Of a stretch of 57,568 nt of DNA, positions 4,864 to 44,319 are shown one piece after another. Each line of letters opens with the position of its first letter. Position 1 is the first letter of the stretch. The notes below the pieces were generated by a model that searched no databases, had not been told where the DNA came from, and saw only the letters and a program-made list of their open reading frames with translations. The DNA is taken from assembly GCA_022072455.1 (NCBI GenBank), contig JAJVHY010000027.1, positions 8,500 to 66,067 of the forward strand. Reading direction: 5' to 3'. Both the position numbers and the translations under genes were made by a program. This stretch comes from Verrucomicrobiia bacterium (lineage in GTDB: Bacteria; Verrucomicrobiota; Verrucomicrobiia; Palsa-1439).

Positions 4864-7800
4864 TCTTGACGCGGTAGAACGCCGGCGTCGGCGGAGCCGG
4901 GTCCGGTAATTCCAATAACGCGCCTGTGCCCGGCGTTGCCGGACCGAGGTCGCTCCAATTCGCTGCGTTCAGGGCGACGCCACGCTGGAGTTGGTAGGTT
5001 TTTCCGGCGACAGATGGGAGCCAGACATGGACGGTGCCATCTTCGATCGTGATCGCCACAATGGCCGGCACCGACTGCGCACTCAACGGCAACGTGCCGG
5101 CACTGTATTCCTGCAGATTCGTAAACCCGTCGCCATCGGGATCCGGCGGATCAGCCGGGGACAATGGATCGAGGCCGGTGGCTTGTTCCCATTCGTTCGG
5201 CAAACCGTCGCCATCCGCGTCCATGCCCACCGCGAGAATCCGCACGCCGACCGACAGGGTGCCGCCGGTGCGAACGAATCGGGCACAAGAGTTCGTGATG
5301 ACCAGGGTATTAACGACGGCCGTTCCACCGGCGAGGGTGAAGGTGCCGTTGCGGAGGTCAAGGGTGCCGGTTACCGTGACCAGACCGCCGGTCACAGTCA
5401 GATTGCCGCTGCCGGTGCCCGCGCAATCGCCAAGGGTGACGGCATTGAACTGGGCGGAGCCGCCGCTAATGATGAGGTGGCCGGTACCTTGCGCACCAAA
5501 GATGGCATTGGTTGCCTGAAGCAGACCAGCAGCAACCGCGACGGTGCCGGTGGCACCCGCATCGGTACCCAGTGTGAGTCCCCCGGTCACGAGGTTCGTG
5601 CCGCCGGAGATCGCCAGCATGCCGGTGGCGCCCGCTTTCACCCCAACACTCTGGTTGGCGGCACTGGCGGTGCCGTTGGAAAGCGTGAGTCGGCCCGGCC
5701 CGGCATAGCCGACGTAGAGGCCGGCCGTGGTTTGGAGGTCACCGGCGGTCACCCACACGGCGTTGGTGTTGGTGGCGAGGTGGCCGATGACAAGTTCGGT
5801 GCCACGGAGCAGGCCGCCGGTCAGTTGGACGGTGCCGCAGGCGTTGGATTGGTTACCGAGGATGAGGTCGCGGTACAGGAACGAGCCGCCGGCCACGGTG
5901 AGACTGCCGACGCCAGCCTGCCCGACGACGGTCGCGCCGTTGAGGACCGAGAGAGTGCCGCTGTTGAACCAGACTTCGCCGGTGGCGCCGAGAGCGTGGC
6001 CGATGCTGAATTGCTGCGCGATGGTGTTGGTGGTCCCGGCCATCGTGAGCGCGCCGTGGGCACCGGCTTGCATCCCGACGATCAGGCCAGCCGTACGGAA
6101 GGTGCCGTCCAGCGCGATGAACGCACCAGTACCGGCCGCGCCGACCACGGTGGTGCCATTGGTGACGAGAATCGAGCCGCCGCGCATCACGGCTGTACCG
6201 TCCACCACCAGCGCGGGCGCAGAATTCGGCGCGCCCTCCCCGCCGAGCGCGAAGAGGTTCGCGCTCCCGAGGTAGAGACTGCTCCAGATCGTGCCCGTGA
6301 TGGGGGAACTCCGGTACCAATAAGTCGGCAACGAACTACCTGAATAGAGGTCACCGTTCAACAGAGCCAGACCGGATATCAACGTGTTCGGGGCTGTCAA
6401 AACAGGGCCGACCACTTGCCCGGTGCTCGGGTCGAGACGATAAACTCGGCCTCCGCCGGTGGCGTACAGCCAGCCGTCACTGGTTGAGCCGGTCAGGCCG
6501 CCGCTGATGTCTCCGGAAATTGAAAACTGCGCCACGACTTGATCGAGGGCCGGATCCCAGACCAGAATCTCGTTGGTCTGGGCGCGCTGGAGGTAGACGC
6601 GGCCATTCAGGTACGCCGCGCCGTCAATCGGACTGGAGAACCCGGCATCAACGATATCGGCATCAAGCACGGCGCCGGTCTCAGGATCAAGTTCCCACAA
6701 GATGTGCGGGCCGCTGCCGTAGCCGTCAATGTAGAAGAGGCTGTTCGGCCCGGCCGCCAGACCAATCGTGTTCGCTGACGAAAGCGGCGCGACCGGCAGT
6801 GGCAGCGTGCGGCTGAACGGCGAATTCGTCCACGCCAGTTCGCTCAGTGAAGGGTTACCGGTCAACGGTCGCGCGAACGCAAACATGCGGCCAGAAGTCC
6901 CGCCCACAGCGCCGCCGTTGACGACCAGCGCCGCGTTGGTGAGATCGAGGTTGCCGGCCGCGCCGATGCGGCAATCGGTCTGAACGCGCAATGGCGTCGC
7001 CGTCGGCAACGCGGCAAGTTGAAGCGTGTTGGGCCCGTCAACGCGGAGAGTGTTCACAACGAGCGTGGTCGCGGCTTGCGCGAGGGTCTGCGCGTCGGCC
7101 AACACGGTCTTGGTTGTGGCGTTGGTGATAAAGATGACTTGATCGGCGGCTGGCGCGATGCCCAGTGACCATGCCGGCGCATCCTGCCAGTTGCCGCCGG
7201 TGGCCTGGAGCCAACTGTTGGTCTGCACCGGGCCGTAAGTGCTGAAGACATTACCGATGCCGGTATGTCCGACGCCGTCATCTGCATGCAGCCACATGCT
7301 CGCCGCGGTCGTGAGAACCGACAGATTTCCTGTCCACATGCCGTTGACGAATTCGGCGGCGTTGGTCGGATTGATGGGCACGGTTTCGACGCCTTCGAAA
7401 CGGATGTTCGGCGTGTAGCTCGACAAGGCGCCGTTCGGATTTCCCGGCGACCAGGTCAACGGGTCGGGATACCCACTCAGAGTTGCATAGTACGTCCTCG
7501 ATCCGCTGGCGAGGGTGCCACGCGTGTAGGCGATGTACAAAGATCCCGACATGCCGTTGTAGCTGAGGTCTACGAGGAGGTTGCTCGTGCCGTTGTACTC
7601 AAATGGGATGACAAATGGGAATCTGATCGACGACGCACTCGACACTGGCATGTTGGTTTGGCACACGGTCGTCCACTCGTTGGTCTGCCATTGCATGCCG
7701 GTTCCCGTGGTCAGTGCCGTGTGTTTCAGGCGGACCGTCCAGTTCTGGTATGTGACCGGCGACGAGAGCGGCATGTATACCTCCAGCCATAACGCCGTCA

Positions 7801-10800
7801 ACTGCCGCGCCGTCCCGACCTGATTGGTCAAGTACAGTGACTGCGTGCGGACTTGCGGAGAGGTACTGCCCACCGGGTAACTCAATAAACCCGAGCCACT
7901 GCCACTCACCGAAACCGGTGCCGCCCGCTGCCCGTGCAATGTCGCCGGGCCGGTGAAACTCGCAACCGGATTGTTGCCGGCATCCTGCGCAATCACCGTT
8001 ACCGGAAACGCCACGCCCACCGTCTGCGACGCGGCCACCGCACTCCAAGCAAAATGATCCAGCCCGCCACCCACCACCGTGAAAGGCGCCGACTGCCCGG
8101 CATGCCCGGACCCATCGCTCGCTGTCAACTGGATGCCGGTATCAATGTTGTTGACCCTCACCGCGCCGGTCCAGACGCCGTTCGCAAACAACCCGGTCAT
8201 CAACGGCCAAACATTCGCCGCCCCGCTGGTGCCTGTGCCGGTCAGAATAGCGGGCCCGGCATGATTCGAGATCACCAGTCCGTTCACATCCAACGCCGTC
8301 ACCGTCACTGCGAATGGCACGCCGGCCGTCTGGACACTGCCGACCGCCGCCCACGCGTAGTGCTGCACGTCGTTGTCGAGAACCAGCACCAGCGCGTTCG
8401 CCGCCGGGAAACCGGCCGCCGTGGCATCCACCGTGACCGACTGCACGCCGTCGAGTTCCGTGTCATCGATCACCGTCACGTTGAACACCGCCGACGTCTG
8501 CCCCACGGCAATCGTCACCAAGTCGGTCACGGTCAACTCGGACGTGTCACTGCTCGACAGATTCACAGTCAGATTCGTCAACAACGTCCCACTGATGAAC
8601 ACCTTGCCGGTGCCGCTCAACGTCCCCTGCCCCTCGCGCACCCAAGCCGGCACGCTCAAGGTCAACACCGTTGCCTCGTTGTCGAACACCGTGATCGTCG
8701 CGGCGGCCTCGCCCCAATTCTCCACGTGCGCCGTGACCGTGGCCGACTGCGTGCCGTCAATCAACGTCTCATCCACAATCGTCGCGGCAAACACCGCTTG
8801 CGTGGCCCCCTTCGCAATCCCGACCGTGGCCGGCACCGCCACCTCGCTCGTGTCGCTCGAACTCAGATTCACTGTCACGTTCGTACCGGCCGCCGCCGAA
8901 CAGAACACGCGCCCGGTCACCAGCATCCCCTCCGTCGCGCTCGCCGGCAACTCCAGCGCCAACGCCGCCGTTTCATCGTCATCAACTAGGATCGTGGCGG
9001 TACCGTTTTGATACCCCGGTGCCAGCGCGGTCACCGTGGCCGGCCAAGTGCCGTCGAGCAGCCCGTCGTCAACGATACTGATGTTGAACCCGGCGTTAGT
9101 CTGGCCGGCGAGAATCACCACACTGGCCGGCAATGTGGCCGCCGACAGTTCGCTGGAACTCAGCGCGACGGTCAGGTTGGCGGGCGGGGCGGAGGTAACG
9201 CTGACCGTCGCCGCCACCACACCCGCGTTCTCCCCCACGCGGCTCGGCACCGTCACCAGCAACGGACTGATGTACTCCGCCTGAAAGACATTGCCGGTGC
9301 CGCTCTTGCCGCCTGCCTCCGTCGCAATCAACGTCACGTCCCACGCCGGCTGCCAGATCGTGAAGTTCCCGCTCCACGTCCCCGCGACGAACAGCCCGGT
9401 ATTGGTCGGCGTGAGACTCACCGGGGTGCCGGCGCCGATGCACACGCTGAAGGACCCGCTGTTGTCGACAAAGTTCTGGTCGTTGTAATGCAGCGTCAGC
9501 GTTCCCGACGCCGGGGAAGTGAAGACGCCGCTGCTGCCCAGTTGAATGCAATTCCCGCCGACCTTGCCCACAAGCGACAACTCGTTCAGGCCGGGACAAA
9601 CAAACGCGCTCGTGGCCGGCACCGTCCCGAGATAATAGGCGGAGCAACTGTTCGTGGAATGCAGCCCATCGGGGTTTGTGTAACTGCTCCCGCCGGTCGC
9701 GTTCGCGATGCACCCCGACGCCTGATACGAATACACGTGCCCCGCCACCACGGCCACGACCGCCGTGCCGCCCGAACTGTTACCCAGCACGCTCACACAC
9801 ACCTGATCAAACTCACCGTGCGACCACGCGGCCAACGTGGCAGAATTCGTGAACGTCGTCACCGTGTTGTTCCCGGCATCCTGCGCCGTCACAGTGACCG
9901 GCGTGGCCAAGCCAACGTACTGCGGCGACGCAACCGGACTGATGGCCAAATGATGCAACGCACCCACCAACACGTCGAACGCCGCGCTCAACCCGGTCTG
10001 CCCCGCCCCGTCGCTGGCCGTCAGCCGCACGTTCGTATCATTATTACTCACGACGAGACTGCTGGACCAAACGCCGTTGCTGAACGCTCCGCTCACCGCC
10101 GGCGCGACCCCAACCGGCCCGCCGTCGCCCGCGCCGGTAATCAACGCCGGCCCGGCATAATTCGAGATGATCAGATTGTTCAAGTCATACGCCGTCACCG
10201 ACACGCTGAACGGCACCGCCGCTGTCTTCGGACTCGAAACCGCACCCCACGCGAAATGATGCAGGTCATTATCGAACACGTTCAACATCGCACTACCGGG
10301 ACTGAACCCAGCCGCGCTCGCCGTGACGGTGGCCGGCTGCGTGCCGTCCAACTCGCTGTCATCGACGATGGCAACGTTGAACACGACCGACGTCTGCCCG
10401 GCCGCGATACTCACGCTCGGCGGCACCGCTAATTCGGTCGTGTCGCTCGACAGCAGACTGACCGTCAATGGCGCCGGCAATGTCCCCCCGATGCGAACCG
10501 TCCCACCATTCGTGATCGTCCCGCGCCCTTCGTAGGCCGATGCCGGCAACGTCACCACCAGGTTCGTCGGCTCATTGTCAAACACCGTGATACTGGCCAC
10601 TCCGGGAATCCAATTCTGGACTGAAGCTGTCACCGTTACCGGCTGCGTCCCGTCAATCTCAATGTCATTGATAACCGTCGCCGTGAACACCGCGCTGGTC
10701 TGGCCGACCGGAATCGTGACCATAGCCGGCACGGTGAGTTCGGTCAGATCGCTCGAAGCCAGACCCACCGGCACGTTGGTCGCCATAATCACGCTGGCAA

Positions 10801-13800
10801 AGACCTGCCCGGTCACCACCCCCTCCTCCTCCGTCACGCTGGCCGGTAGCGTCAACGTGAGCGTCACCGCCTCGTTATCATGCACCCACATGACCAGATT
10901 CGTGCTGACGTACCCGGACGCCAACGCCCGCACCGTTATTGCCCGCGAGCCATCAACAATGGCGTCATCCACAACACCCAAGTCGAACACGACGTTGGTC
11001 TGGCCCGCCGGCACGACCACGCTCGCCGGCAACACAACCTCACCCAATTCGCTCACTGTGAACGTGACCGGCACATCAGTGGCGGGTGCCGTCGTCAGAT
11101 TGACTTGCCCGGTCGCCGCGAGCAGGCCAACTCCCTCCGTCACATTCGCCGGTAACTCTAACGCCAGATTGCCGGTGGATACCGCGCGGAATGGGTTGCT
11201 GTCCCCCCGCTGCCCGCTGCCATCGTCGGCGCGAATGAAGACGTTCGTCACCGGCTCCAGAATCGTGACGGTGCCGCTCCAAATTCCTGCGGTGAATGGA
11301 CCGGTGATAGTCGGCGTGAGACTGACCGCGCTGCCCGCGCCGATGCAGACGCTGAAACTTCCGTTGTTATCGCCAAAACCATCATCGTTGTAGTACAGCG
11401 TCAGTACACCTGTTGCCGGTGCGACAAACGCGCCAACAGTCCCGAGCTGCACACAGTTGCCACCAACCTTGCCGACCAAAGACCAGGCTCGCAAACCGGT
11501 GCAAATAAAACCACTGGGCGCATTACTCGTCGCAGCGCATGCCCCAGCCGCGATGGCGCCGTCCGCATCCGTTCGACACCCGCTGTAATTGAACGCAATC
11601 GAACCTGACGAACTAAACGTGTACCGCTCACCCGCCACAACATTGCCAAACACTACACCTGCGGAACTCGTCCCGCTCACGGTGCCGCAGACCTGGCCGG
11701 TCAGGGTCCCGGTCAACGCCGACAAGTACACGCTATTTGTGAAGAACGACACCGTGTTGCCGCCCGAATCCTGTGCGATCACCGTGACCGGGATCGGTGT
11801 GCTCACGTTCTGCGTTGCGCCAAGACTGCTCCAGACAAAATGATGCACCGCGCCCGGCACCACATCAAACGCCCCACTCGCGCCGGTATGTCCGCTCCCG
11901 TCGTCGGCCACCAATTGCACCCCGGTATCGGCCGTCACCACGCGCACCGACCCCGTCCACGTCCCGTTCACGAACGCGCCGCTCACGGCGTTCGACAACA
12001 CCACCACGCCGTGATCGCCCGTTGCGGTCAGGCTGACCGGGCCGGGGAAGTTCGACATGATCAGGTCGGCCACATCTCGCGCCGTCACACTGACGGTGAA
12101 CGGCACCCCGGACGTCTGCGGACTGGCAATGCCCAACCACGTGAAATGATGCGCGTCGCTGTCGAGCACGTTGACCGTCGCGTTACCGTCGGTGAACCCG
12201 GCTGCACTAGCCGTGACCGGGGCCGGCTGCGTACCGTCCAGTTCGGCATCATCGACAATCACCACGTTGAACACCACCGACGTCTGCCCCGCCGCGATCG
12301 TCACACTCGCCGGCACCACCAACTCGCTCGTATCCCCCGAAACCAACCCCACCACCAAGTCACCCGGCAACGTCCCGCTGATGCGGACGCGCCCGGCATT
12401 GGTCAACGTCCCCGCGTTCTCGTACGCCGACGACGGCAAGGTCAGCACCAAGTTCGTCGCCTCGTTGTCCAAGATGCTGATGTTGGCCGTTGCGTCCGTC
12501 CACCCAGTCACGTGTGCCGTGATCGTCGCCGACTGCGTCCCATCGATCAGCGTGTCGTCTGGGAAACTGGCGTTGAACACCACCGACGTTTGCCCCGGCA
12601 AAATGACGACACTGGCCGGCACGGTCGCTTCCGTGACATCGCTCGAAGTCAGCGTGACGGTCACGTTCGTCGCGACTGGCGCGCTCACCACGACGGCACC
12701 CGCGAGTGAAGCACCACCTTCGACGGCACTGACTGGCACGTCGAGAGTCAACGTCGCGGTGTCGTTGTCATGCACGACGAGTATCTGGAACGCGGCTGGA
12801 TAGCCGGCCGAACTGGCATGCACTGTCGTCGGTTGCGAGCCATCGAGGTCCGCGTCGTCCCCAATCGTCACGTCGAAGCTCACGTTCGTCTGGCCGGCGG
12901 GAATCGTCACCGTGGCCGGCACCGTCAACTCACTCGCGTCACCGGATTGCAGGCTGACGACCAGATCCGCCACCGGGGCCGGCGTAACTGCGACCTGACC
13001 TTGCCCGCTGAGCACGCCATCACCTTCCGTCGCGCTGCCCGGCACCGTCAACGCAAGCGCGCCGGTATAAATCACGTTGAACGCGTTGCCGTAGCCACCG
13101 TGCCCCATGCTGTCCTCGGCACGCAGAAATACGTTCGTGGCCGGCGCCAAAACGCTGACCGATCCCGTCCAGACGCCGGCGACGAAGTTGCCGGTATTCG
13201 TCGGCGTCAACGACGTGCCGCTGGCGGCGGCGATGAGCCGGACATTCGGAATCTGGGCAATGAGGCTGCCGCTCGGCGAACTCCCGCTCCACGTCAACGG
13301 ATCGCCGTAACCGCTGTCCGTGTAAAAATACAGACTGCGCGACTGGCTCGTCGCGGTGTACCGGCTCGCGCCGGAGCTGGTGTACGAACTGTTGTTGAAA
13401 CTAAAGTCCACCATCAAGCTGTCGGTGCCGTTGTAGTCGAACGGCTGGCTGAACACAAAATTGACCCAGCCGGTCGTCGTGATGCTCTGGTTCGTCTGAT
13501 ACACGACCGTCCACCCGCTCGCGTCCCACGTCGCCGTCGCGTAGTTGGTCAGCGGGCTGTGCTTGAGGCGGATCGTCCAGTTATTCATCGTCTGCGCCGG
13601 CAGCGTCGTCACATCCAACGCCAACGCGCTGATCCGTTTCGGCCCACCGAGTTCGTCGCGCAGGTAAATCACCTGGGTCCGCGCGTCGTGGTAGAACGTG
13701 TACAGTGGAAAACTCCACGCGCCCGTGCCGGTGCCCACGTTGGTGCTGATGCCGGTCGTCGCGCTCATCCCCACCGTGCCGGTGAAACTGTTCACCGTGT

Positions 13801-16800
13801 TGCTCGCTGCGTCCTGCGCCGTCACCGTCACCGCAAACGGCACCTCGACCCGTTGCGTCGTCGCGACCGAGCTGATCGCAAAATGATCGAGCGGCCCCGC
13901 CGCCACCGTGAACGGCGCGCTCTGCCCGGTATGTCCCGCGCCATCATTGGCCGTTAGCCGGACGTTTGTCCCCGAAACGGCGATCACCACGGCGCCGGTC
14001 CACGTTCCGCTCACAAACGCCGTCGTGCTGAGCGGCGCCAACGCCATCGTTCCACCGTCCCCCACCGCGCTCAAGCCGGCCGTGCCGGTGAAGTTCGAGG
14101 TGACACGATCCACCACGTCGCGCCCCGACACGCTCACACTGAACGGCGCGCCAGCCGTCGGCGTCCCACTGATTACCGCCCATGTGAAATGGTGCAGATC
14201 GTTGTCGCGTACCGTCGTCGCCGCGGTACCGGGAACAAACCCGCTCGCGCCAGCCGTGATTGTGACCGGCTGATCGCCATCAGTCTCCGTGTCATCCACC
14301 ACGGTGACCGGGAACGATGTCGTTACCTGCCCCGCCGCAATCGTCACCGTCGCCGGCACGGTCAACTCCGTCAGATCGCTCGAACTCAAATTCACCATCA
14401 AAGCCGACGGCAACGTCCCACTGATGCTCACACTGCCGGTATTGTTGACGCCCTCCGTCAACAACGCCGGCACCATGATCGTGAGATTGGTTGACTCGTT
14501 GTCGAGCACGCTGAGCACCGCGGTGCCGTCGGTCCAACCGGTCACCCGCGCAGTCAACGTCACCGGCTGCGGGCCGTCGAGGAGCGTATCGTTCGGCAGG
14601 TTGATGAGAAAATTCGTGCTGGTCTGCCCGGCCGCGACCGTCACCGTGGCCGGCACCGTCGCCTCCGTCGTGTCGCTGGACAACAACGTGATCGCCACGT
14701 TCGCCGCCGGCGCGCTGCTGATCGACACCATGCCCGTCACGGACGCGCCTCCTTCGATGGCTGTCGCCGGCACGTTCAACGTCAACGTCGCCGTCTCGTT
14801 ATCGGTGACTGTGACCGTCCGGTTCGTCGCCTGATAACTGGTCGCCCCGGCCCACACGCTCACCGCCTGCGAACCATCGAGCACCGCGTCGTCGCCAACC
14901 GTCACGTTAAAACTCACGTTGGTCTGCCCAGCCAGAATCGTCACCGACGCCGGCACGATCAACTCGGTCGTGTTGCTCGACACCAACTGCACCAGCAAGT
15001 CCGCCGCCGGCGCCACCGCCACACTGACGCGGCCGGTACTACTCAACACCCCGTCGCCTTCGCGCACCGTCGCCGGCAAGTTCAACGCGACCGCCCCCCG
15101 GTAGATCGTGCGGAACACCGTGCTCGTGCCGAACTGGCGCGTCGGCAACGCGGCGAGCAATTGCAGGTTGGTGGACGCCCCGAGCACCGTCAGCGCGCCA
15201 CTCCACACTCCGTTGGTGAACTCGCCCGTCACCGGCGGCGTCAATGGGACGACGCCACCTTGAAAGCGCAGATCGACCAAAAACCACCGCGCCGGATCCG
15301 GCGTGTTCGGGAAGACGTCCCCATCGTCCCGGTAACTCTGATGAATCGTGCCGCTGACGAAATTCGCCGCGAGATTGGTGCGCCAGAAGGACGGCTCACT
15401 GCCGGTAAAAACCCCGACCCGGTACCGGATCCCGGCATGCAACACGATCCCGGTTGTCAACGCCGTCTCCGTCCACGTGCCGACGATGCTCGCCACGCTG
15501 TCCGTCGCCAGCACGGTACCGGTATCAGTCCACAAACCGACCTTCGTGCCGGCATAATGTCGCCAATGCGTCACCGTCCACTCGTTCGTCGGCGTGAACG
15601 AATAGCCCACGGTTCGCACCGCCGTCGTGTTCGTAAACGCCGGTAGCGCGCTGCCGAGAAGGACGTTCGTGATCTGCACGCTGCCGCTGCGAATCACGCT
15701 CAGGTTTGCCGTCCCACCGAAATTCGTCGCGACGTTGTTGGCCACATCCCGCGCCGTCAGCGTGACACCAAACGGCGCCTCGACATATTGCGTCGCGCCC
15801 AGCGCACTCCACGTGAAGTGATGCACCACCGCCTGCACCACGTCGAACGCCGTACTCGTACCGGAATGGCCGCTGCCATCGCTGGCGAACAACCGCACGT
15901 TCGAGTCAAGGTTGCTGATCGTCACACTGCCGGCCCACGCGCCATTCGCGAACGCGCCACTCGTCAGCGGCAACATCGGGTTCGGGCCGCCATCACCGGC
16001 CGCGCTCAACATCACCGGCCCCGGATAATTCGAGATCGCCAAATTCCCCACGTCCCGCGCTGACACGTTCACGCTGAACGGCACCCCACCCGTCCGGGTC
16101 CCAGAAATCGTCGCCCAGGTAAAATGATCCACCTCGTTGTCCCACACCGTCCACGTCGCCGCGCCGTCCGTGAACCCGCCCGCACTGGCCGTGACCGTGA
16201 CCGACTGCGCGCCATCGCTCTCACTATCGTCCACCACCGTTACCGCGAAGACCGCCGAGGTCTGTCCCGCGCCAATCGTCACACTCGCCGGCACCGTCAA
16301 CTCCGTCAGATCGCTCGACACCAGATTCACCGGCAAATCCGCCGGTAACACGCCGCTGATCCGCACCACCCCGGCATTGGTCAACAGGCCCGCCCCCTCC
16401 CGCGCCACACCGGTCAACGTCACCACCAGATTTACCGGCTCGTTGTCCAACACATCCACGCTCGCCAGCCCGTCCGTCCAACCGGCCACGTGCGCCGTGA
16501 CCGTCACCGCCTGCATCCCATCAATCAACGCGTCGTTCACGACCGTCGCCACAAACACCGCCTGCGTCTGCCCGGCCACGACCGTGACACCAACTGGCAC
16601 CGTCAACTCCGTCGGATCGCTCGACGTCAGCGCCACGGCAAAATCCACCGTGACCGGCGTGCTCACAAACACCGTCCCGGTCACCGCCCCGGCGCCTTCC
16701 GTCACGTTCGCCGGCAAGCTCACCGTCAACATCGCCGTCTCATCGTCGAGCACATTGATCGCGGCGGCACCGGCCAAATAATTCGCGGCCGTCGCGGTGA

Positions 16801-19015
16801 TCGTCGCGGTTTGGGTGGCGTCCAAATCCGCGTCGTTCACGATCGTCACATCGAAACTGGCATTCGTCTGGCCGGCCAGGATCGTGATTGTCGCCGGCAC
16901 CGTCGCTTCCGTCGTGTCACTGGACGCCAGCGTGACCGGTACGTCATTCGTCTGCGCCGTGGGGATGCTGACCACGCCGGTCACTGTGCCGACACTCTCG
17001 CTGGCGCTGGCCGGCAACACCAAGGCCAGTTGCGACGCCGGCGCGGGTGGGCTGAACACGAGCGCATAGGTCTGCGGCGCGTTGACCGGCACGTTACGCC
17101 CCACCACGCGCACCGACCACAGCCCGGCCACGACGCCGGTCTCCACGCTGACCTGTTCGATGACGTTGGTGTGATCCTCGCCGGTCTGGACGGCGGTGGC
17201 AGGAGGATTGGCCGGGTCGAGCGTCCACGGATACCGGCGGACGTTATTGGGATCGGTCACCACGAGGTCGAGGTCGTTGACGAGCGCGAGCGCGGCGTTT
17301 TCGACGGCGGCCGGGTCGTCCCAGACGAGCGTGAATTTGACGTTGGTCGTGCCGGCAGGGACGGCGAAAGTGTGCAGATTGGTCTGCGAGTGGCCGATGG
17401 TGGCGACGAGGAAACCATTGGAGCGAACTTGCTCGACCGCCGCTTTGACTTGGACGCGACCGTAGCCGGACGCGTAGTCCGGTCCTTTGTTGAACCAGCT
17501 CGTGTCGTCGTCGAGATCGAGCGCGGTGTGGATGAACAGCGCGCGCACCAAGGCCGGCACCGGATTAGTGCCGCCGAAGAGCGCCCGGTAATCCTCGACC
17601 AGCAACCCGATGCAGCCGGACATCGCCGGCGCCGCCATCGAGGTGCCGATGTAGACGCCGTATGTGTTGCCGGGCAACGTCGATTTTATGCCACCGTCGC
17701 CACCGGCTTGGTCGCCGGGCGCGACGAGTTCCGGTTTGAGCCGGCCATCATCGACCGGCCCCCAACTGCTGAAGTACGCAATCGAGTTGTCGTCGGAGTT
17801 GATCGCACCGATGCTGAGCATGTTCTTGGCGGTGGCCGGCGGCCCGACGCAACGGTAATTCAGATAATTGGGAGCGCCGTTGGTGAGATGGCAGTCGCCG
17901 TCGTCGCGTTCGTTGCCGGCGGCGAAGATGATGTTGATGCCGCGCCCGTACAGGCCGGTAACGATCTCGTCGTACTCCGGCGCGTCGGCGCCGTAATTGC
18001 CGTAGAGCGCGCAGTTGCCGTAGCCGCTGCTGACGGTGTACATCCAGGAGTTTTGCGACAAGACGATGCTGTAGGTGTTGATGGCGGCGTTGTGCTCGGT
18101 GATGTTGCTGTTCCAATCGTGCGTGACGATGGTGGCGTTGGTCGCCATCCCGCGCCATTGCAACGCCGTGCCCCCGGCGCTGGCGCTCAACGTGCCATTG
18201 CCGGCCATCGTGCCGGCGACATGCGTGCTGTGACTGCTCGTGCCGGCCGTGTCGCCAGTGATCAGGCGTCCCGCAAAATCGGCGTGCGCTGGATCGACGT
18301 GGGCCTCGTCCCATTCACCCAACGCCACGCCCGCGCCGGTCAGATTGTAGGGCGCGGATTCGAGGAGCGTGGCCTGAACGTTGACGCGCGCACCGTCGTT
18401 GTTCGTGCTCGGCGGCGGCGGCGCTTCCTCGACCCAGCGCACGGCGTCAAGGTCGGCCAACGCGTCCAGTTTCGCGGCCGGCAAGTTGACCGTGAGCCGG
18501 CAAAGCTCGGCTTCGGTTTTCAGTACGTGCCCGCCCAACGCTTCGATGGCCGCGGTCCCGGTCGCGGGGGCGATGCCGGCAAACAGTTTGACGCGCAGCT
18601 CGACGGTATCGCCCGCGCGTTTGGCCCATTGGCCGAGGCCGGTTTGGCGGACGCGCCGCGGCATCTTGTCCGCAATCTCCACACCGCCGAGCCACCGGAA
18701 TTTGCCGTGGAGTTGCGCCGCCGGCGTACGACCGTCAACGCTGGCGAAGAAGGCGTTGTCCGGCAGGTAGTGCAGCAGGCGCACCCCCTGCGCTTCCAAT
18801 TGCTGCCGTTGGGCGGGCGTGGGCACGGCATCGAACTGCACGATCACGTGGAGCGCGGCGTGGTTGGGTTTGGCGGCGCGGAGCCGGTCGAGGTTCGCCA
18901 CGATTTCGCCGGCCGGTAGGAGTTCCTGTGATTGGAGGCGGATGGGCTTACCGTCCGCCAAGGCAGCCGCCGTGAACACGCACAGAAGAAGTCCCACCAC
19001 GCGCTTGGTGTTCAT
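4853..19015 (-). CDS. Giant secreted subtilisin-like protease with 15 Calx-beta repeats
   Basis: 4720-residue secreted protein. A signal peptide (about residues 1-20, ending AALA) precedes a pro-region and a subtilase (S8) domain at roughly 225-530. The catalytic triad is visible as D236 (GEWDE), H262 (SHSTHVAGT) and S459 (GTSMAAP), with oxyanion N368 (AAGNE). A beta-rich domain follows the protease (about 545-655). From about residue 661 to 3930 there are five supermodules, each made of three Calx-beta repeats, one domain of about 100 residues starting (D/H)HF(T/A)W, and a second domain with variable inserts. The region at about 3930-4590 looks like T5SS/PEP-CTERM-associated beta-helix repeats (GATG..VSGG). 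The tail has DADGDGLPNEWEQ, PDPDGDGFTN and a module ending FYRVKITP. The likely role is a calcium-dependent cell-surface or extracellular protease/adhesin. The gene stands alone on the minus strand. Confidence 0.9.
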   Translation of the reverse strand: MNTKRVVGLLLCVFTAAALADGKPIRLQSQELLPAGEIVANLDRLRAAKPNHAALHVIVQFDAVPTPAQRQQLEAQGVRLLHYLPDNAFFASVDGRTPAAQLHGKFRWLGGVEIADKMPRRVRQTGLGQWAKRAGDTVELRVKLFAGIAPATGTAAIEALGGHVLKTEAELCRLTVNLPAAKLDALADLDAVRWVEEAPPPPSTNNDGARVNVQATLLESAPYNLTGAGVALGEWDEAHVDPAHADFAGRLITGDTAGTSSHSTHVAGTMAGNGTLSASAGGTALQWRGMATNATIVTHDWNSNITEHNAAINTYSIVLSQNSWMYTVSSGYGNCALYGNYGADAPEYDEIVTGLYGRGINIIFAAGNERDDGDCHLTNGAPNYLNYRCVGPPATAKNMLSIGAINSDDNSIAYFSSWGPVDDGRLKPELVAPGDQAGGDGGIKSTLPGNTYGVYIGTSMAAPAMSGCIGLLVEDYRALFGGTNPVPALVRALFIHTALDLDDDTSWFNKGPDYASGYGRVQVKAAVEQVRSNGFLVATIGHSQTNLHTFAVPAGTTNVKFTLVWDDPAAVENAALALVNDLDLVVTDPNNVRRYPWTLDPANPPATAVQTGEDHTNVIEQVSVETGVVAGLWSVRVVGRNVPVNAPQTYALVFSPPAPASQLALVLPASASESVGTVTGVVSIPTAQTNDVPVTLASSDTTEATVPATITILAGQTNASFDVTIVNDADLDATQTATITATAANYLAGAAAINVLDDETAMLTVSLPANVTEGAGAVTGTVFVSTPVTVDFAVALTSSDPTELTVPVGVTVVAGQTQAVFVATVVNDALIDGMQAVTVTAHVAGWTDGLASVDVLDNEPVNLVVTLTGVAREGAGLLTNAGVVRISGVLPADLPVNLVSSDLTELTVPASVTIGAGQTSAVFAVTVVDDSESDGAQSVTVTASAGGFTDGAATWTVWDNEVDHFTWATISGTRTGGVPFSVNVSARDVGNLAISNYPGPVMLSAAGDGGPNPMLPLTSGAFANGAWAGSVTISNLDSNVRLFASDGSGHSGTSTAFDVVQAVVHHFTWSALGATQYVEAPFGVTLTARDVANNVATNFGGTANLSVIRSGSVQITNVLLGSALPAFTNTTAVRTVGYSFTPTNEWTVTHWRHYAGTKVGLWTDTGTVLATDSVASIVGTWTETALTTGIVLHAGIRYRVGVFTGSEPSFWRTNLAANFVSGTIHQSYRDDGDVFPNTPDPARWFLVDLRFQGGVVPLTPPVTGEFTNGVWSGALTVLGASTNLQLLAALPTRQFGTSTVFRTIYRGAVALNLPATVREGDGVLSSTGRVSVAVAPAADLLVQLVSSNTTELIVPASVTILAGQTNVSFNVTVGDDAVLDGSQAVSVWAGATSYQATNRTVTVTDNETATLTLNVPATAIEGGASVTGMVSISSAPAANVAITLLSSDTTEATVPATVTVAAGQTSTNFLINLPNDTLLDGPQPVTLTARVTGWTDGTAVLSVLDNESTNLTIMVPALLTEGVNNTGSVSISGTLPSALMVNLSSSDLTELTVPATVTIAAGQVTTSFPVTVVDDTETDGDQPVTITAGASGFVPGTAATTVRDNDLHHFTWAVISGTPTAGAPFSVSVSGRDVVDRVTSNFTGTAGLSAVGDGGTMALAPLSTTAFVSGTWTGAVVIAVSGTNVRLTANDGAGHTGQSAPFTVAAGPLDHFAISSVATTQRVEVPFAVTVTAQDAASNTVNSFTGTVGMSATTGISTNVGTGTGAWSFPLYTFYHDARTQVIYLRDELGGPKRISALALDVTTLPAQTMNNWTIRLKHSPLTNYATATWDASGWTVVYQTNQSITTTGWVNFVFSQPFDYNGTDSLMVDFSFNNSSYTSSGASRYTATSQSRSLYFYTDSGYGDPLTWSGSSPSGSLIAQIPNVRLIAAASGTSLTPTNTGNFVAGVWTGSVSVLAPATNVFLRAEDSMGHGGYGNAFNVIYTGALALTVPGSATEGDGVLSGQGQVAVTPAPVADLVVSLQSGDASELTVPATVTIPAGQTNVSFDVTIGDDADLDGSQPTTVHASSAGYPAAFQILVVHDNDTATLTLDVPVSAVEGGASLAGAVVVSAPVATNVTVTLTSSDVTEATVPASVVILPGQTSVVFNASFPDDTLIDGTQSATITAHVTGWTDATANISILDNEATNLVLTLPSSAYENAGTLTNAGRVRISGTLPGDLVVGLVSGDTSELVVPASVTIAAGQTSVVFNVVIVDDAELDGTQPAPVTASAAGFTDGNATVNVLDSDAHHFTWLGIASPQTSGVPFTVSVTARDVADLIMSNFPGPVSLTATGDHGVVVLSNAVSGAFVNGTWTGSVRVVTADTGVQLVADDGSGHTGASGAFDVVPGAVHHFVWSSLGATQNVSTPIPVTVIAQDSGGNTVSFFTNSVYLSALTGTLTGQVCGTVSGTSSAGVVFGNVVAGERYTFSSSGSIAFNYSGCRTDADGAIAAGACAATSNAPSGFICTGLRAWSLVGKVGGNCVQLGTVGAFVAPATGVLTLYYNDDGFGDNNGSFSVCIGAGSAVSLTPTITGPFTAGIWSGTVTILEPVTNVFIRADDGSGQRGDSNPFRAVSTGNLALELPANVTEGVGLLAATGQVNLTTAPATDVPVTFTVSELGEVVLPASVVVPAGQTNVVFDLGVVDDAIVDGSRAITVRALASGYVSTNLVMWVHDNEAVTLTLTLPASVTEEEGVVTGQVFASVIMATNVPVGLASSDLTELTVPAMVTIPVGQTSAVFTATVINDIEIDGTQPVTVTASVQNWIPGVASITVFDNEPTNLVVTLPASAYEGRGTITNGGTVRIGGTLPAPLTVSLLSSDTTELAVPPSVSIAAGQTSVVFNVAIVDDSELDGTQPATVTASAAGFSPGSAMLNVFDNDLHHFAWGAVSSPKTAAVPFSVSVTAYDLNNLIISNYAGPALITGAGDGGPVGVAPAVSGAFSNGVWSSSLVVSNNDTNVRLTASDGAGQTGLSAAFDVLVGALHHLAISPVASPQYVGLATPVTVTAQDAGNNTVTTFTNSATLAAWSHGEFDQVCVSVLGNSSGGTAVVAVVAGHVYSYQASGCIANATGGSSYTNPDGLHSTNSCSAYYLGTVPATSAFVCPGLNELSLVGKVGGNCIQLGSSGVFTSPASGTLTLHYNDQNFVDNSGSFSVCIGAGTPVSLTPTNTGLFVAGTWSGNFTIWQPAWDVTLIATEAGGKSGTGNVFQAEYISPLLVTVPSRVGENAGVVAATVSVTSAPPANLTVALSSSELSAATLPASVVILAGQTNAGFNISIVDDGLLDGTWPATVTALAPGYQNGTATILVDDDETAALALELPASATEGMLVTGRVFCSAAAGTNVTVNLSSSDTSEVAVPATVGIAKGATQAVFAATIVDETLIDGTQSATVTAHVENWGEAAATITVFDNEATVLTLSVPAWVREGQGTLSGTGKVFISGTLLTNLTVNLSSSDTSELTVTDLVTIAVGQTSAVFNVTVIDDTELDGVQSVTVDATAAGFPAANALVLVLDNDVQHYAWAAVGSVQTAGVPFAVTVTALDVNGLVISNHAGPAILTGTGTSGAANVWPLMTGLFANGVWTGAVRVNNIDTGIQLTASDGSGHAGQSAPFTVVGGGLDHFAWSAVAASQTVGVAFPVTVIAQDAGNNPVASFTGPATLHGQRAAPVSVSGSGSGLLSYPVGSTSPQVRTQSLYLTNQVGTARQLTALWLEVYMPLSSPVTYQNWTVRLKHTALTTGTGMQWQTNEWTTVCQTNMPVSSASSIRFPFVIPFEYNGTSNLLVDLSYNGMSGSLYIAYTRGTLASGSRTYYATLSGYPDPLTWSPGNPNGALSSYTPNIRFEGVETVPINPTNAAEFVNGMWTGNLSVLTTAASMWLHADDGVGHTGIGNVFSTYGPVQTNSWLQATGGNWQDAPAWSLGIAPAADQVIFITNATTKTVLADAQTLAQAATTLVVNTLRVDGPNTLQLAALPTATPLRVQTDCRIGAAGNLDLTNAALVVNGGAVGGTSGRMFAFARPLTGNPSLSELAWTNSPFSRTLPLPVAPLSSANTIGLAAGPNSLFYIDGYGSGPHILWELDPETGAVLDADIVDAGFSSPIDGAAYLNGRVYLQRAQTNEILVWDPALDQVVAQFSISGDISGGLTGSTSDGWLYATGGGRVYRLDPSTGQVVGPVLTAPNTLISGLALLNGDLYSGSSLPTYWYRSSPITGTIWSSLYLGSANLFALGGEGAPNSAPALVVDGTAVMRGGSILVTNGTTVVGAAGTGAFIALDGTFRTAGLIVGMQAGAHGALTMAGTTNTIAQQFSIGHALGATGEVWFNSGTLSVLNGATVVGQAGVGSLTVAGGSFLYRDLILGNQSNACGTVQLTGGLLRGTELVIGHLATNTNAVWVTAGDLQTTAGLYVGYAGPGRLTLSNGTASAANQSVGVKAGATGMLAISGGTNLVTGGLTLGTDAGATGTVAVAAGLLQATNAIFGAQGTGHLIISGGSAQFNAVTLGDCAGTGSGNLTVTGGLVTVTGTLDLRNGTFTLAGGTAVVNTLVITNSCARFVRTGGTLSVGVRILAVGMDADGDGLPNEWEQATGLDPLSPADPPDPDGDGFTNLQEYSAGTLPLSAQSVPAIVAITIEDGTVHVWLPSVAGKTYQLQRGVALNAANWSDLGPATPGTGALLELPDPAPPTPAFYRVKITP
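7225..17034 (-). repeat. Five-fold supermodule repeat (3 Calx-beta + A + B) in the giant protease
   Basis: Within the giant gene the order Calx-Calx-Calx-A-B occurs five times, with approximate starts at 17034, 15095, 13065, 11172 and 9263 and an end near 7225; each unit is about 1.9-2.0 kb. Calx-beta units share VPA.VTI.AGQT...F.VT..DD...DG.Q..TVTA and end VLDNE or similar. The A domain starts near 16125, 14190, 12150, 10262 and 8366. The B domain starts near 15829, 13886, 11846, 9957 and 8061 and carries different inserts. Boundaries were estimated by eye from the translation and may be off by tens of bases. Confidence 0.85.
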
Positions 19016-40600: not shown

Positions 40601-40660
40601 GCCCGCGATCGCGCGCAAGCGCCCACACCCGCCGCCGAATTGGAAGAGGTGGTGGCATGA
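37598..40660 (+). CDS. RND-family multidrug efflux permease (HAE1)
   Basis: 1020-residue inner-membrane proton-driven pump of the AcrB/MexF type. It has the typical N-terminus (FTDLFIRRPVVATVVNLVI), large periplasmic loops and about twelve membrane segments. The key proton-relay acidic pair is visible in GLVVDDAIVVVENVERH, and the second-half repeat is GLVSKNGILIVEFAN. Length is normal. It would export drugs or other amphiphiles through the adaptor (36501) and outer-membrane channel (40657). Four-base overlaps on both sides indicate one transcription and translation unit. Confidence 0.96.
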   Translation: MKFTDLFIRRPVVATVVNLVILLAGFQAIRSLNVRQYPRSDIAVITIKTAYVGANADLVRGFVTTPLERAIASADGIDYIESQSAQSLSTISVHLRLNYDNNDALTQIQSKVAQVRNDLPPEAEAPVIDIETSDNRFAAMYLSFYSDDLDQNQITDYLTRVVQPKLTAVAGVQKADILGARTFAMRVWLKADRLAALNISPSEVRAALGANNYLSAVGATKGAMVSMNLTANTDLRTPEEFRQLVIRETNGTIVRLQDVADVQLGAENYDDEVRFSGQKATFMGVWVLPTANSLDVIKAVRAELPMIEKELPVGMKLGIPYDSTKYIRDAIHEVIRTLVETLIIVVVVIFLFLGSLRSVLIPVVAIPISLIGAVFLMLVFGFTLNLLTLLAIVLSVGLVVDDAIVVVENVERHLHEGASPFEAAIRSGRELFSPIIAMTITLATVYAPIGFQGGLTGALFREFALTLAGAVTVSGIVAITLSPMMASKLLRAKDADAGFAGMISRHFDVLRRKYIQLLGGTLRWRPVTLTLAGLVILLMVPFFMFSGSELAPKEDQGFIMAVIQAAPNSTLDQTLLYTEKVHEAFKSVPETENTFQITSPSFGFGGMTVKPWSERNRNTEVIVGEVFGKLSAIPGIQAIAFTPSPLPGGGDFPVEFVIASTAEPRELLEFANQLVLKAFASGLFMYADTNLKFDQPQTEIVFDRDKVASLGVNLQQVGADLGTMLGGNYVNRFSIQGRSYKVIPQVTRAQRLTPEQLQEMYVSGPGGKLVQLATFATLKQTTEPRQIFRFQQLNSVKIQGAIAPGVTLDQALKMLEDEAAKILPRGYRVDYAGEARQLRTEGSNLNTTLILALILIFLVLAAQFESFRDPLIILLGSVPLAMSGSLLFTFLGFTTLNIYSQIGLITLVGLVSKNGILIVEFANTLQAAGKSKLEAVVEAAGTRLRPVLMTSFATIAGHFPLVLATGPGAGSRNSIGIVLVTGMAIGTVFTLFILPSIYMAIARDRAQAPTPAAELEEVVA

Positions 40661-42072
40661 AACACGTCGCGGTACTCACCCTTGTCATTCTGACCGGCTG
40701 CGCCGTCGGCCCGGATTACCGGTCACCGAAAACCGAGTTACCGGCCAACTGGTCGGAGTCGCACGCCGGTGGGATCACCAACCGCACTGCCCAACTTGCG
40801 CAGTGGTGGAAGACGTTCCAGGATCCCGAGCTTGATTCGCTGATCGAACGCGCCTTGCTTGCCAACCACGATCTGCGGATGGCTGCCAGTCGGTTGCGTG
40901 AGGCGCGCGCGCTGCGAGCCGGCCGGTACTGGGACATGCTCCCCACCATCGAAGGCCAGGCGGCGTACATCAACGCCCGCACCAGCAAAAACGCCCAAGT
41001 CTTCCCGATCGACAAGATCAATACCGAAACCTACGACGCGCATTTCGATGCCGTCTGGGAGATTGACGTCTTCGGACGCAAACGCCGCGGCCTCGAAGCC
41101 GTCAAAGCCAACTTCGCCGCAACGCAGGAAGATCAACGCGACGTTCTGGTGAGCGTGCTGGCGGAAGTGGCACGCAATTACGTCGAACTCCGCGGCTTTC
41201 AACGCCGGAGCGCCATCACCCGCGACAACATTGCGGCGCAACAAGTCGCCCTCGACCTTACCCGCGCGCGATTCAAGGGCGGCATCAGCAGCCAGCTCGA
41301 CGTCGCGCAAGCCGCCGCCTTGCTGGCCGGCACACAATCACAGTTGCCGGTGCTCGAAGCCGCCACCAAACAGACGCTCCACCGGTTGGCGGTATTGATC
41401 GGCCAAACGCCGGACAAATTGCTGGCGGAGCTCGTGCCAGCCGGCCCAATTCCCGGCATCCCGCCGGAAGTGCCGGTCGGCTTGCCCTCTGAGCTATTGC
41501 GCCGCCGAGCCGACATTCGCCGCGCCGAACGCCGACTCGCCGCGACCACTGCCCGCATTGGCGTCGAGACGGCGGAGTTGTTCCCGAAGTTCTCGCTGAT
41601 CGGCACCGGTGGACTACAGAGCTTGAGCACGAGCGATTGGTTCAGCGGCGGCAGCCGGTATTGGACCGCAGGACCGACGGTGACGTGGCGGTTGTTTGAA
41701 CTCGGTAAAATCCGCAGTCAGATCAAGGCCGCAACGGCGCGGGAGGAAGAAGCGCTCGCGTTCTACGAGCAATCCGTGTTGCTGGCATTGGAGGATGTCG
41801 AGAACGCGTTGGTGAACTACGCGCAGGAGCAGGAGCGCCACCGGTCACTGCACGCGCAAGTCGCCGCCAACCGGCAAGCCGTCGAGCTGGCCAACGAGCT
41901 TTACAGCAAAGGCAACAGCGATTTCCTCACCGTGCTGGATGCGAAGCGTTCGCTTTACCGGGCCGAAGACGATCTCGCGCAATGCGAGCGCACCGTGACC
42001 ACCAACCTCATCGCACTCTACAAAGCGCTCGGCGGCGGGTGGGAAGAAATCAAGCTGGTTGAGAAGCGCTAG
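40657..42072 (+). CDS. Outer-membrane efflux lipoprotein (NodT/OprM family)
   Basis: 471-residue channel subunit of the tripartite pump. The N-terminal signal ends in a lipobox (ILTGC, lipidation at C15) followed by AVGPDYRSPKTELPANW, the standard start of NodT-type outer-membrane factors. Two repeats of the TolC/OEP domain follow (for example SLIERALLANHDLRMAASRLREARA and LPSELLRRRADIRRAERRLAA). It completes the regulator-adaptor-permease-channel operon. Its stop overlaps the convergent lysyl oxidase gene by 4 bp. Confidence 0.94.
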   Translation: MKHVAVLTLVILTGCAVGPDYRSPKTELPANWSESHAGGITNRTAQLAQWWKTFQDPELDSLIERALLANHDLRMAASRLREARALRAGRYWDMLPTIEGQAAYINARTSKNAQVFPIDKINTETYDAHFDAVWEIDVFGRKRRGLEAVKANFAATQEDQRDVLVSVLAEVARNYVELRGFQRRSAITRDNIAAQQVALDLTRARFKGGISSQLDVAQAAALLAGTQSQLPVLEAATKQTLHRLAVLIGQTPDKLLAELVPAGPIPGIPPEVPVGLPSELLRRRADIRRAERRLAATTARIGVETAELFPKFSLIGTGGLQSLSTSDWFSGGSRYWTAGPTVTWRLFELGKIRSQIKAATAREEEALAFYEQSVLLALEDVENALVNYAQEQERHRSLHAQVAANRQAVELANELYSKGNSDFLTVLDAKRSLYRAEDDLAQCERTVTTNLIALYKALGGGWEEIKLVEKR

Positions 42073-42812
42073 TTGCGGACGCGCACCGGGACGGCGGTGC
42101 TATTGTTCTGATAATCGTGCTCCGGCAAGATGCGGTCAGGATTGACCTCGACTTCCAGTGTGTACTTACCAGGCGCGAGGCCGGTGATGTCGATATACTG
42201 GCAATCCAGCGCCTGATCATAGACGTCCGCCCACCCGGCACTGATGCCTTGGTTCGCGATGCAATCATGGAAGACCGCGCCGATTTTCGATTTGTAGGGC
42301 AGCGAGTCGAGCATGCAAAACCCCTGTTTCCGGCCGGTAATAAACTCGCCACTCTCCGCGAGTGTACCGAGCAGCGCCTGATTGGCCGGGTCGGAGACCG
42401 GCAGCGACCAGTCGCGGCTCTTGCGCCACGCTTTGTAACCGGCTTTTGTCCAGAGCCTGTATTCAGTGAATTGTTCGAGGTGGTAATGGCCGTGGCACTC
42501 GCTGAAATGAAACAACAGCGAACACTCGGCCGGTGCGCCGATGAAAAGCGCTGTCTCACCGATGTTCGGCGTCGTGGTGGTAAAGCGGAGTAACCGCCGT
42601 AATCCCGGTGTCGCGATGCAGCCTTCGATGTACTGGCAACTGTTGGTCGCGATGAATTCCTGCGTGATGGACCGGTCTTTTTTCAACGGTTGCTTGGCCA
42701 CGATCAAGTCCGGCAAGAGCGGCCCCGCCGGCGTGGCGCAGGGCCCGAGTTGTGCGGTCACGGAACCAGTGCATACCAGCACAAAAAGGAAACAGACCAA
42801 GGCCACCTTCAT
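42069..42812 (-). CDS. Secreted lysyl oxidase-like copper amine oxidase
   Basis: 247 residues from the ATG at 42812, giving a clean signal peptide (MKVALVCFLFVLVCTGSVTA). An ATG at 42875 would add 21 residues unlike a signal. The body matches the lysyl oxidase domain: copper ligands CHGHYH (H107, H109, H111); K162 in TGRKQGFC and Y198 in ADVYDQALDCQYIDIT, which align with the lysine and tyrosine that form the lysyl tyrosylquinone cofactor in animal LOX; and the C-terminal GKYTLEVEVNPDRILPEHDYQNN. It would oxidise lysine side chains or amines outside the cytoplasm, possibly cross-linking surface proteins. It lies downstream of two membrane-protein genes. Confidence 0.88.
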   Translation of the reverse strand: MKVALVCFLFVLVCTGSVTAQLGPCATPAGPLLPDLIVAKQPLKKDRSITQEFIATNSCQYIEGCIATPGLRRLLRFTTTTPNIGETALFIGAPAECSLLFHFSECHGHYHLEQFTEYRLWTKAGYKAWRKSRDWSLPVSDPANQALLGTLAESGEFITGRKQGFCMLDSLPYKSKIGAVFHDCIANQGISAGWADVYDQALDCQYIDITGLAPGKYTLEVEVNPDRILPEHDYQNNSTAVPVRVRN

Positions 42813-42877: not shown

Positions 42878-43582
42878 TTAGACGCGGTCGCGTTCTTCCA
42901 GCGCGGCCAGCAACACCGCGATGGCACGCCGCAATTCTCTTTCCTGCGGCGTCAAATCCGCGGCTGTCGCCAGCCGGTGGAGGCGCGCTTGCACCAATTG
43001 CACGGCCGCCAGCGAGTCATTCAGGCAATCCAGCGCCGAAATTCCGCGACTGTCTTTCGTACGCAACAGTTGGTGAAAATCCGCCTCTAACTGCGCGCCC
43101 AATTGTGCCACCAGTGCCGGATCCTGGCCGACGCGAAGCAGTTCCTTGATCTGGTCCTGCCGGCTGACGAGGAAATCATCCACCATCGTCGCCACATGCG
43201 GGGCCAATTCCTGGAGTTGTTGCCGGACCATCGCGAGAGTCCGGGTCTCGAATTGCCGCCGCGCTGCCGGCATCTGTTCGATGGCCAAATCCGGCAATTG
43301 CCGGATGGCTGCCGGCACTTCTGTCACCAGCCTGTCAGCGAGTTCGCGGCCATTGTCACGCACAAAACCGGCGGCGTAGTGGTTCGCCAAGGCTGCCGCC
43401 GGTTTCGGCTGCAGCAGATTCTGATGAAGGAAGTACGTCAGGCAGCCCATGTAGACGCCGACGAAAATCACGCCCCCGACAAAAAACCCGCGCGTGCGCC
43501 GGTAGGTCTGCTGGGCTTTGACGAGTTGAGCGTCAACACATTCGACAACGGCAACCTCAACGGAAAGCGGGGTCTGGCTCAT
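42878..43582 (-). CDS. Membrane-anchored helical protein B, unknown function
   Basis: 234 residues from the ATG at 43582, which overlaps the upstream stop (TAATG) and has AAGGAG eight bases before it. A single hydrophobic segment (GFFVGGVIFVGVYMGCLTYFL, about residues 32-52) is followed by a long helical, Gln/Leu/Arg-rich region with ELAPHVATMVDDFLVSRQDQIKELL. Its layout mirrors the preceding gene product (short N-terminal cytoplasmic part, one membrane segment, helical outer domain), so the two may be paralogues or partners. No known family was recognised. Confidence 0.75.
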   Translation of the reverse strand: MSQTPLSVEVAVVECVDAQLVKAQQTYRRTRGFFVGGVIFVGVYMGCLTYFLHQNLLQPKPAAALANHYAAGFVRDNGRELADRLVTEVPAAIRQLPDLAIEQMPAARRQFETRTLAMVRQQLQELAPHVATMVDDFLVSRQDQIKELLRVGQDPALVAQLGAQLEADFHQLLRTKDSRGISALDCLNDSLAAVQLVQARLHRLATAADLTPQERELRRAIAVLLAALEERDRV

Positions 43583-44319
43583 TATTGGTTCTCCTTGCCA
43601 AGCGAAGTTTCCTGCATAAATCGGGCGTATTCCACCGGCGCCATCTCGCGCAGGTTTTCCTGCAACAAGTTCGCGCACAACACCGCCACTTCCCACGTGA
43701 CGGGCCGGTTCTTCACCGTCTCGGCTTCCAGTTCGCGGATCAGGTGAATATCATTGAAAATTCCCTGCATGGAAGCGACATAGGGATTCATGATGCTGGA
43801 ACCGATGTTGAGCAACCGCGCCTCGGTTTCCCGCGTCAAGTTGGCCACCAGCCTGGCCACAGCCGCGTCGGTCATCTCCGGAAACATCTGGCGGATTTTG
43901 GCTTCGCGTTCAGCAATGACCTTGCCTAGCGATTCCTGCAATGTCTCATGAATCCGCGCCGGCATTTCCTGGCGGAGTGTTTCGAGTTCTTGGGCGGCTT
44001 TCGCCGTCAACTCCGGCGTCCGTGCCTGCAACTGTCCCAATTCGGTTTTGACCACCGGCATGAGTTTGTCGAGCGTACCCATCGTCAACGTGGTCACCTC
44101 CGGCACCACCTCCCGGCGGAAACCGCCAGCCAGTTCCGCAACAAACTCCTCCTGCTGCGGCCCCTTGTTGATCAAGTCGAGCGCCGCACTGCGCAACACG
44201 AACAAGCCGGTCAGAATTATGACGCCACAACTTACGGTCGCGCCGATCTTCCACCAGCGGAGCCGACGGTTCAACTCGTCAATCTCCGCAAATTTTTTCT
44301 GCACAACCTCAATAATCAT
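43582..44319 (-). CDS. Membrane-anchored helical protein A, unknown function
   Basis: 245 residues. A short N-terminal helix (VVQKKFAEIDELNRRLRW) precedes one membrane segment (KIGATVSCGVIILTGLFVL, about 24-42) and a long extracytoplasmic helical region with MPVVKTELGQLQARTPELTAKAAQELETLRQEMPARIHETLQ. The ATG at 44319 has AGGAG nine bases upstream. It is the first gene of a three-gene minus-strand operon ending in the lysyl oxidase. I do not recognise the family; a periplasmic coiled-coil scaffold is conceivable but unproven. Confidence 0.75.
   Translation of the reverse strand: MIIEVVQKKFAEIDELNRRLRWWKIGATVSCGVIILTGLFVLRSAALDLINKGPQQEEFVAELAGGFRREVVPEVTTLTMGTLDKLMPVVKTELGQLQARTPELTAKAAQELETLRQEMPARIHETLQESLGKVIAEREAKIRQMFPEMTDAAVARLVANLTRETEARLLNIGSSIMNPYVASMQGIFNDIHLIRELEAETVKNRPVTWEVAVLCANLLQENLREMAPVEYARFMQETSLGKENQ

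Follow-up and report, generated by a model that had tools for sequence, protein, structure and literature searches.

What does a lysyl oxidase (LOX) gene encode, and what might it do, in a verrucomicrobial bacterium? The animal LOX family cross-links collagen and elastin and stiffens collagen; to our knowledge, the bacterial enzymes have no settled role. We analyzed a stretch of 57,568 nucleotides of a Verrucomicrobiia genome (the window), in which one open reading frame (ORF) encodes a small protein of this family. Our best explanation, which we hold at a probability of about 80%, is that the product is exported and works as an amine oxidase that depends on copper and a quinone.

The LOX gene and its catalytic residues

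The ORF list placed the gene, encoding 247 amino acids plus a stop codon, on the minus strand at exactly the position given in the initial annotation. The features considered below, in window coordinates, are as follows.

42069..42812, minus strand: lysyl oxidase gene (ORF call; PF01186, E 1.2e-27)
42753..42812, minus strand: predicted signal peptide, residues 1-20 (hydropathy, low pLDDT; cleavage site inferred, SVTA/QLG)
42480..42494, minus strand: copper motif H107-x-H109-x-H111 (84/84 domains; equals LOXL2 H626/H628/H630)
42354..42446, minus strand: insertion that follows the copper strand and precedes the LTQ lysine, with helices predicted at residues 123-132 and 142-153 (spacing count, AlphaFold2)
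42327..42329, minus strand: K162, the LTQ lysine (84/84 domains; equals LOXL2 K653)
42219..42221, minus strand: Y198, the LTQ tyrosine (84/84 domains; equals LOXL2 Y689)

Lysyl_oxidase (PF01186) was the sole Pfam match of the protein at the default threshold, with 97.3 bits against a curated cut-off of 20.4; an NCBIfam search gave no match, and human LOXL2 was the only sequence match in the PDB. The window protein is a member of the lysyl oxidase family. The three histidines, K162, and Y198 were found where the initial annotation had put them, and they align with the LOXL2 residues listed above, for which the copper and LTQ roles have been described (PMC10532419). Together with the Pfam match, this alignment bore out the claim that the protein is a lysyl oxidase in which no copper or LTQ residue is missing. 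All five residues were invariant in 84 aligned LOX domains, made up of the window protein, 79 of the 80 loci that we collected from public genomes, and four domains fetched earlier; the remaining locus (L009) has a broken frame and was excluded for that reason. The scan patterns were CHxHxH or QGxxxGWxD, which means that the histidines were partly selected for, while K162 and Y198 lie in neither pattern. Given the E value of the PF01186 match and the invariance of the five catalytic residues, the residue pattern is not due to chance.

The start codon is supported by two Acidobacteria gp2 MAGs (L009 and L010), whose LOX proteins align with the window protein at 42% identity, beginning at residue 1 and continuing across and beyond the signal peptide. 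The G+C content of the gene is 58.5%, compared with 61% in the window, and its third positions resemble those of the neighboring genes. The stop codon overlaps by 4 bases the end of a convergent gene for an outer-membrane efflux protein (OEP; 40657-42072, plus strand). Since this OEP gene has relatives at 55-61% identity in several members of the family, including ones without LOX, the contig fits its genome. The same strand carries, upstream of LOX, two ORFs in succession (42878-44319, minus strand) that have no Pfam match and each contain a single strongly hydrophobic segment; for the farther of the two, a paralogue with 32% identity was found elsewhere in the genome.

The N terminus of the LOX protein is hydrophobic (mean hydropathy 2.1 over 19 residues, 3-21), and pLDDT is low in residues 1-20 of the AlphaFold2 model, which is consistent with a putative signal peptide. 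The initial annotation had described a clean signal peptide; the hydrophobic stretch is there, and its reading as a signal peptide is a prediction from hydropathy. In a Gram-negative cell, a signal peptide alone takes a protein to the periplasm only, and the predicted signal therefore points to a periplasmic location, with a further system needed to reach the outer surface. The mature chain contains eight cysteines.

Predicted fold, insertion, and possible relation to CARDB domains

AlphaFold2, run on 79 sequences with a row from a plasmid collection left out, returned a LOX model with a mean pLDDT of 90.3. Its best structural match by a wide margin was human LOXL2 5ZE3 (VIA-align Z 20.1, 2.2 Å over 184 residues; Foldseek E 3.5e-14), and the structures ranked next had Z scores of 7.9 and below. 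As modeled, the protein has the LOX catalytic-domain fold. The HxHxH motif is predicted on a loop and a short strand (109-112), K162 immediately after strand 157-161, and Y198 at the end of strand 194-198, and the order of the strands agrees with that of LOXL2 (PMC9659206). The window protein shares with the LOXL2 catalytic domain the fold, the HxHxH motif, the LTQ lysine and tyrosine, and a 36-residue spacing between the latter two; however, identity is ~30%, SRCR domains are absent, and two additional helices are inserted ahead of the LTQ lysine. The initial annotation had named a model with K162 and Y198 far apart as grounds for rejection. This test is invalid because in 5ZE3, a zinc-bound unprocessed precursor, Lys653 and Tyr689 are 16.6 Å apart, yet the enzyme matures, and AlphaFold models of LOX proteins include near as well as far arrangements of the pair (PMC9659206).

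The spacing from H111 to K162 is 51 residues in the window protein, 51 in the acidobacterial L010, and 47 in a Euryarchaeota MAG (L015), compared with 21-29 in the other 81 of the 84 domains; the insertion is thus common to these three genomes only. In the tree, the three proteins grouped weakly (63/96), and placing the window protein with the main verrucomicrobial clade was not rejected by the AU test (p 0.395). We therefore claim a shared insertion rather than a proven clade. No neighbors were shared among the LOX loci of the window, L009, L010, and L015. Lying beside the LTQ lysine, the insertion could alter access, which we counted against the reading as an active enzyme.

The highest-scoring structure after LOXL2 was a CARDB domain (3idu) at Z 7.9; another CARDB domain and a domain of a putative cell-surface protein each scored 7.2, and scores of this size may reflect a common arrangement. 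For 20 of 79 LOX domains, Pfam CARDB (PF07705) matched with E values no higher than 1, the best being 9.5e-6, and in the members inspected singly the match fell in the last strands. In the window protein, the domain concerned is residues 34-247 (window 42072-42713, minus strand). We compared a LOX profile with a profile of 23 CARDB domains gathered independently of LOX. The comparison gave a probability of 91.9, a P of 6.9e-7, and a score of 46.3 over 34 aligned columns, while the maximum of 100 column-shuffled comparisons, the sole type of control, was 17.2. Both domains start with PDL.V and finish with G.Y.L.V..[DN]....E...NN. A literature search found no paper linking LOX with the CARDB domain. 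Shared descent of the two is plausible. We tentatively propose, at somewhat less than even odds, that a CARDB-type surface domain became the LOX catalytic domain by gaining, between the strands of its N-terminal and C-terminal parts, the insertion that holds HxHxH and the LTQ Lys and Tyr. The window protein would then belong to a small branch in which two more helices are inserted close to the active site.

Relatives and distribution

Bacterial and archaeal LOX proteins were reported in 2015, from five bacterial groups, and Verrucomicrobia are absent from the main text of that report (PMC4448552); the window gene is a new member of a family already known in bacteria. PF01186 matched in 6 of 388 sampled genomes of the phylum, and among these six L007 is a probable CARDB cross-match and L006 is divergent and lacks the histidines. 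Calling the enzyme rare in bacteria is correct as far as this phylum goes, which is the scope of the count. Within its family, the window genome alone among 11 carries LOX, and we counted this sporadic occurrence against the reading as an active enzyme. A single-protein scan of genome contigs gave no match, an alignment-based scan of public genome contigs yielded the 80 loci, and the viral contigs scanned contained none. Identity of the window protein to its relatives is about 40%. L006 (1111-1770, plus strand), from another genome of the class, retains the LTQ lysine and tyrosine without HxHxH and, from these residues, may be an inactive relative.

The LOX proteins of Luteolibacter, Haloferula, and other Verrucomicrobiota (L003-L005, L048, L061) have the same catalytic residues, but they carry an N-terminal extension of ~330-360 residues and form their own clade, whereas the window protein falls outside that clade and consists of the domain alone. 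L003 and L005 come from genomes of the same class as the window, and their LOX groups with those of Haloferula and Luteolibacter in the tree, which points to Verrucomicrobiota as the phylum. N-terminal extensions of ~340-490 residues were also seen on the LOX of L041, L044, L045, and L056 (Sphaerotilus, Leptothrix). HTU-LOX of Haloterrigena turkmenica and the other haloarchaeal proteins (L077, L086, and L088 are in our alignment) are exported LOX domains with all catalytic residues, as here, where export is predicted. In contrast to the window protein, they form a separate supported clade and lack the insertion, and activity, predicted here, is known there.

Probable activity and candidate roles

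HTU-LOX, in which the conserved His, Lys, and Tyr are present, has amine oxidase activity that is sensitive to BAPN and relaxed in specificity, with many small amines accepted (PMC6452851). The full set of copper and LTQ residues and the hydrophobic export signal suggest that the window enzyme is probably active as well; cofactor formation and activity are what we infer from the family, over and above its residues and fold. After export, the domain would fold as a beta-sandwich with disulfides and bind copper through H107, H109, and H111. Copper and O2 would convert Y198 to dopaquinone, which K162 would attack to give lysyl tyrosylquinone, and the quinone would oxidize primary amines, either small ones or those of lysine side chains, to aldehydes with release of NH3 and H2O2. 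As to the natural substrate, our most likely guess is that the enzyme oxidizes amines or exposed lysines with low specificity, in the periplasm or near the cell, a guess favored because HTU-LOX, the one characterized archaeal homologue, behaves in this way.

Three other accounts of the protein were weighed. It might cross-link surface or matrix proteins of the organism through oxidized lysines, like animal LOX, and the initial annotation had suggested the giant surface proteins as substrates. The predicted export signal and the chemistry would permit this, HTU-LOX oxidizes lysine polymers and lysozyme (PMC6452851), and Sphaerotilus and Leptothrix, which form sheaths, also have LOX genes (L041, L044, L045). 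However, the giant ORF (4853-19015, minus strand; 4720 amino acids) lies ~23 kb away and encodes a subtilase domain at residues 258-519 with a sub-threshold TSP3 match, and it is rich in A, T, V, and G with 0.6% lysine. Collagen repeats (PF01391) were searched for in the genome and not found, no gene family was conserved beside LOX across the 80 loci beyond near relatives, leaving no conserved neighbor as a possible substrate, and the signal peptide would reach the periplasm only. The proposed cross-linking of the giant proteins thus found no support, and we consider a cross-linking role in general unlikely. Sphaerotilus and Leptothrix are a setting in which such a role could be tested. The largest neighbor cluster at the LOX loci was probably made up of shadow ORFs antisense to LOX itself, and we set it aside.

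Detoxification of amine-bearing antimicrobials appears quite improbable. This role is suggested by the convergent RND-OEP operon that ends against LOX in the window, by RND genes near LOX in L045 and L075, and by the oxidation of polymyxin and aminoglycosides by HTU-LOX (PMC6452851). But the genome has seven full-length RND matches and another two that are each split in two, RND genes lie within 6 kb of LOX in 2 of 80 other loci, and because such genes are abundant in the genome we estimate, without a formal test, that this proximity is about at chance level; moreover, the OEP gene has relatives, at 55-61% identity, in family members that lack LOX. We give even less credence to an inactive relic or binding protein that keeps only the fold, although HTU-LOX activity was undetectable in its own host (PMC6452851) and the divergent L006 has lost HxHxH while keeping the lysine and tyrosine. 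The window protein retains all catalytic residues at ~40% identity to its relatives, an intact frame, and the predicted export signal, and drift would not have spared exactly the catalytic residues.

The window gene adds to the family a small bare-domain LOX whose active site is intact, found in a lineage where the relatives sampled have no such gene; the protein would be convenient for testing in vitro. Whether LOX arose in prokaryotes or eukaryotes was left open when the bacterial and archaeal proteins were described (PMC4448552), and the relation to CARDB, if it holds, bears on that question: a CARDB origin would place the beginnings of the enzyme, the animal ones included, among prokaryotic surface proteins.
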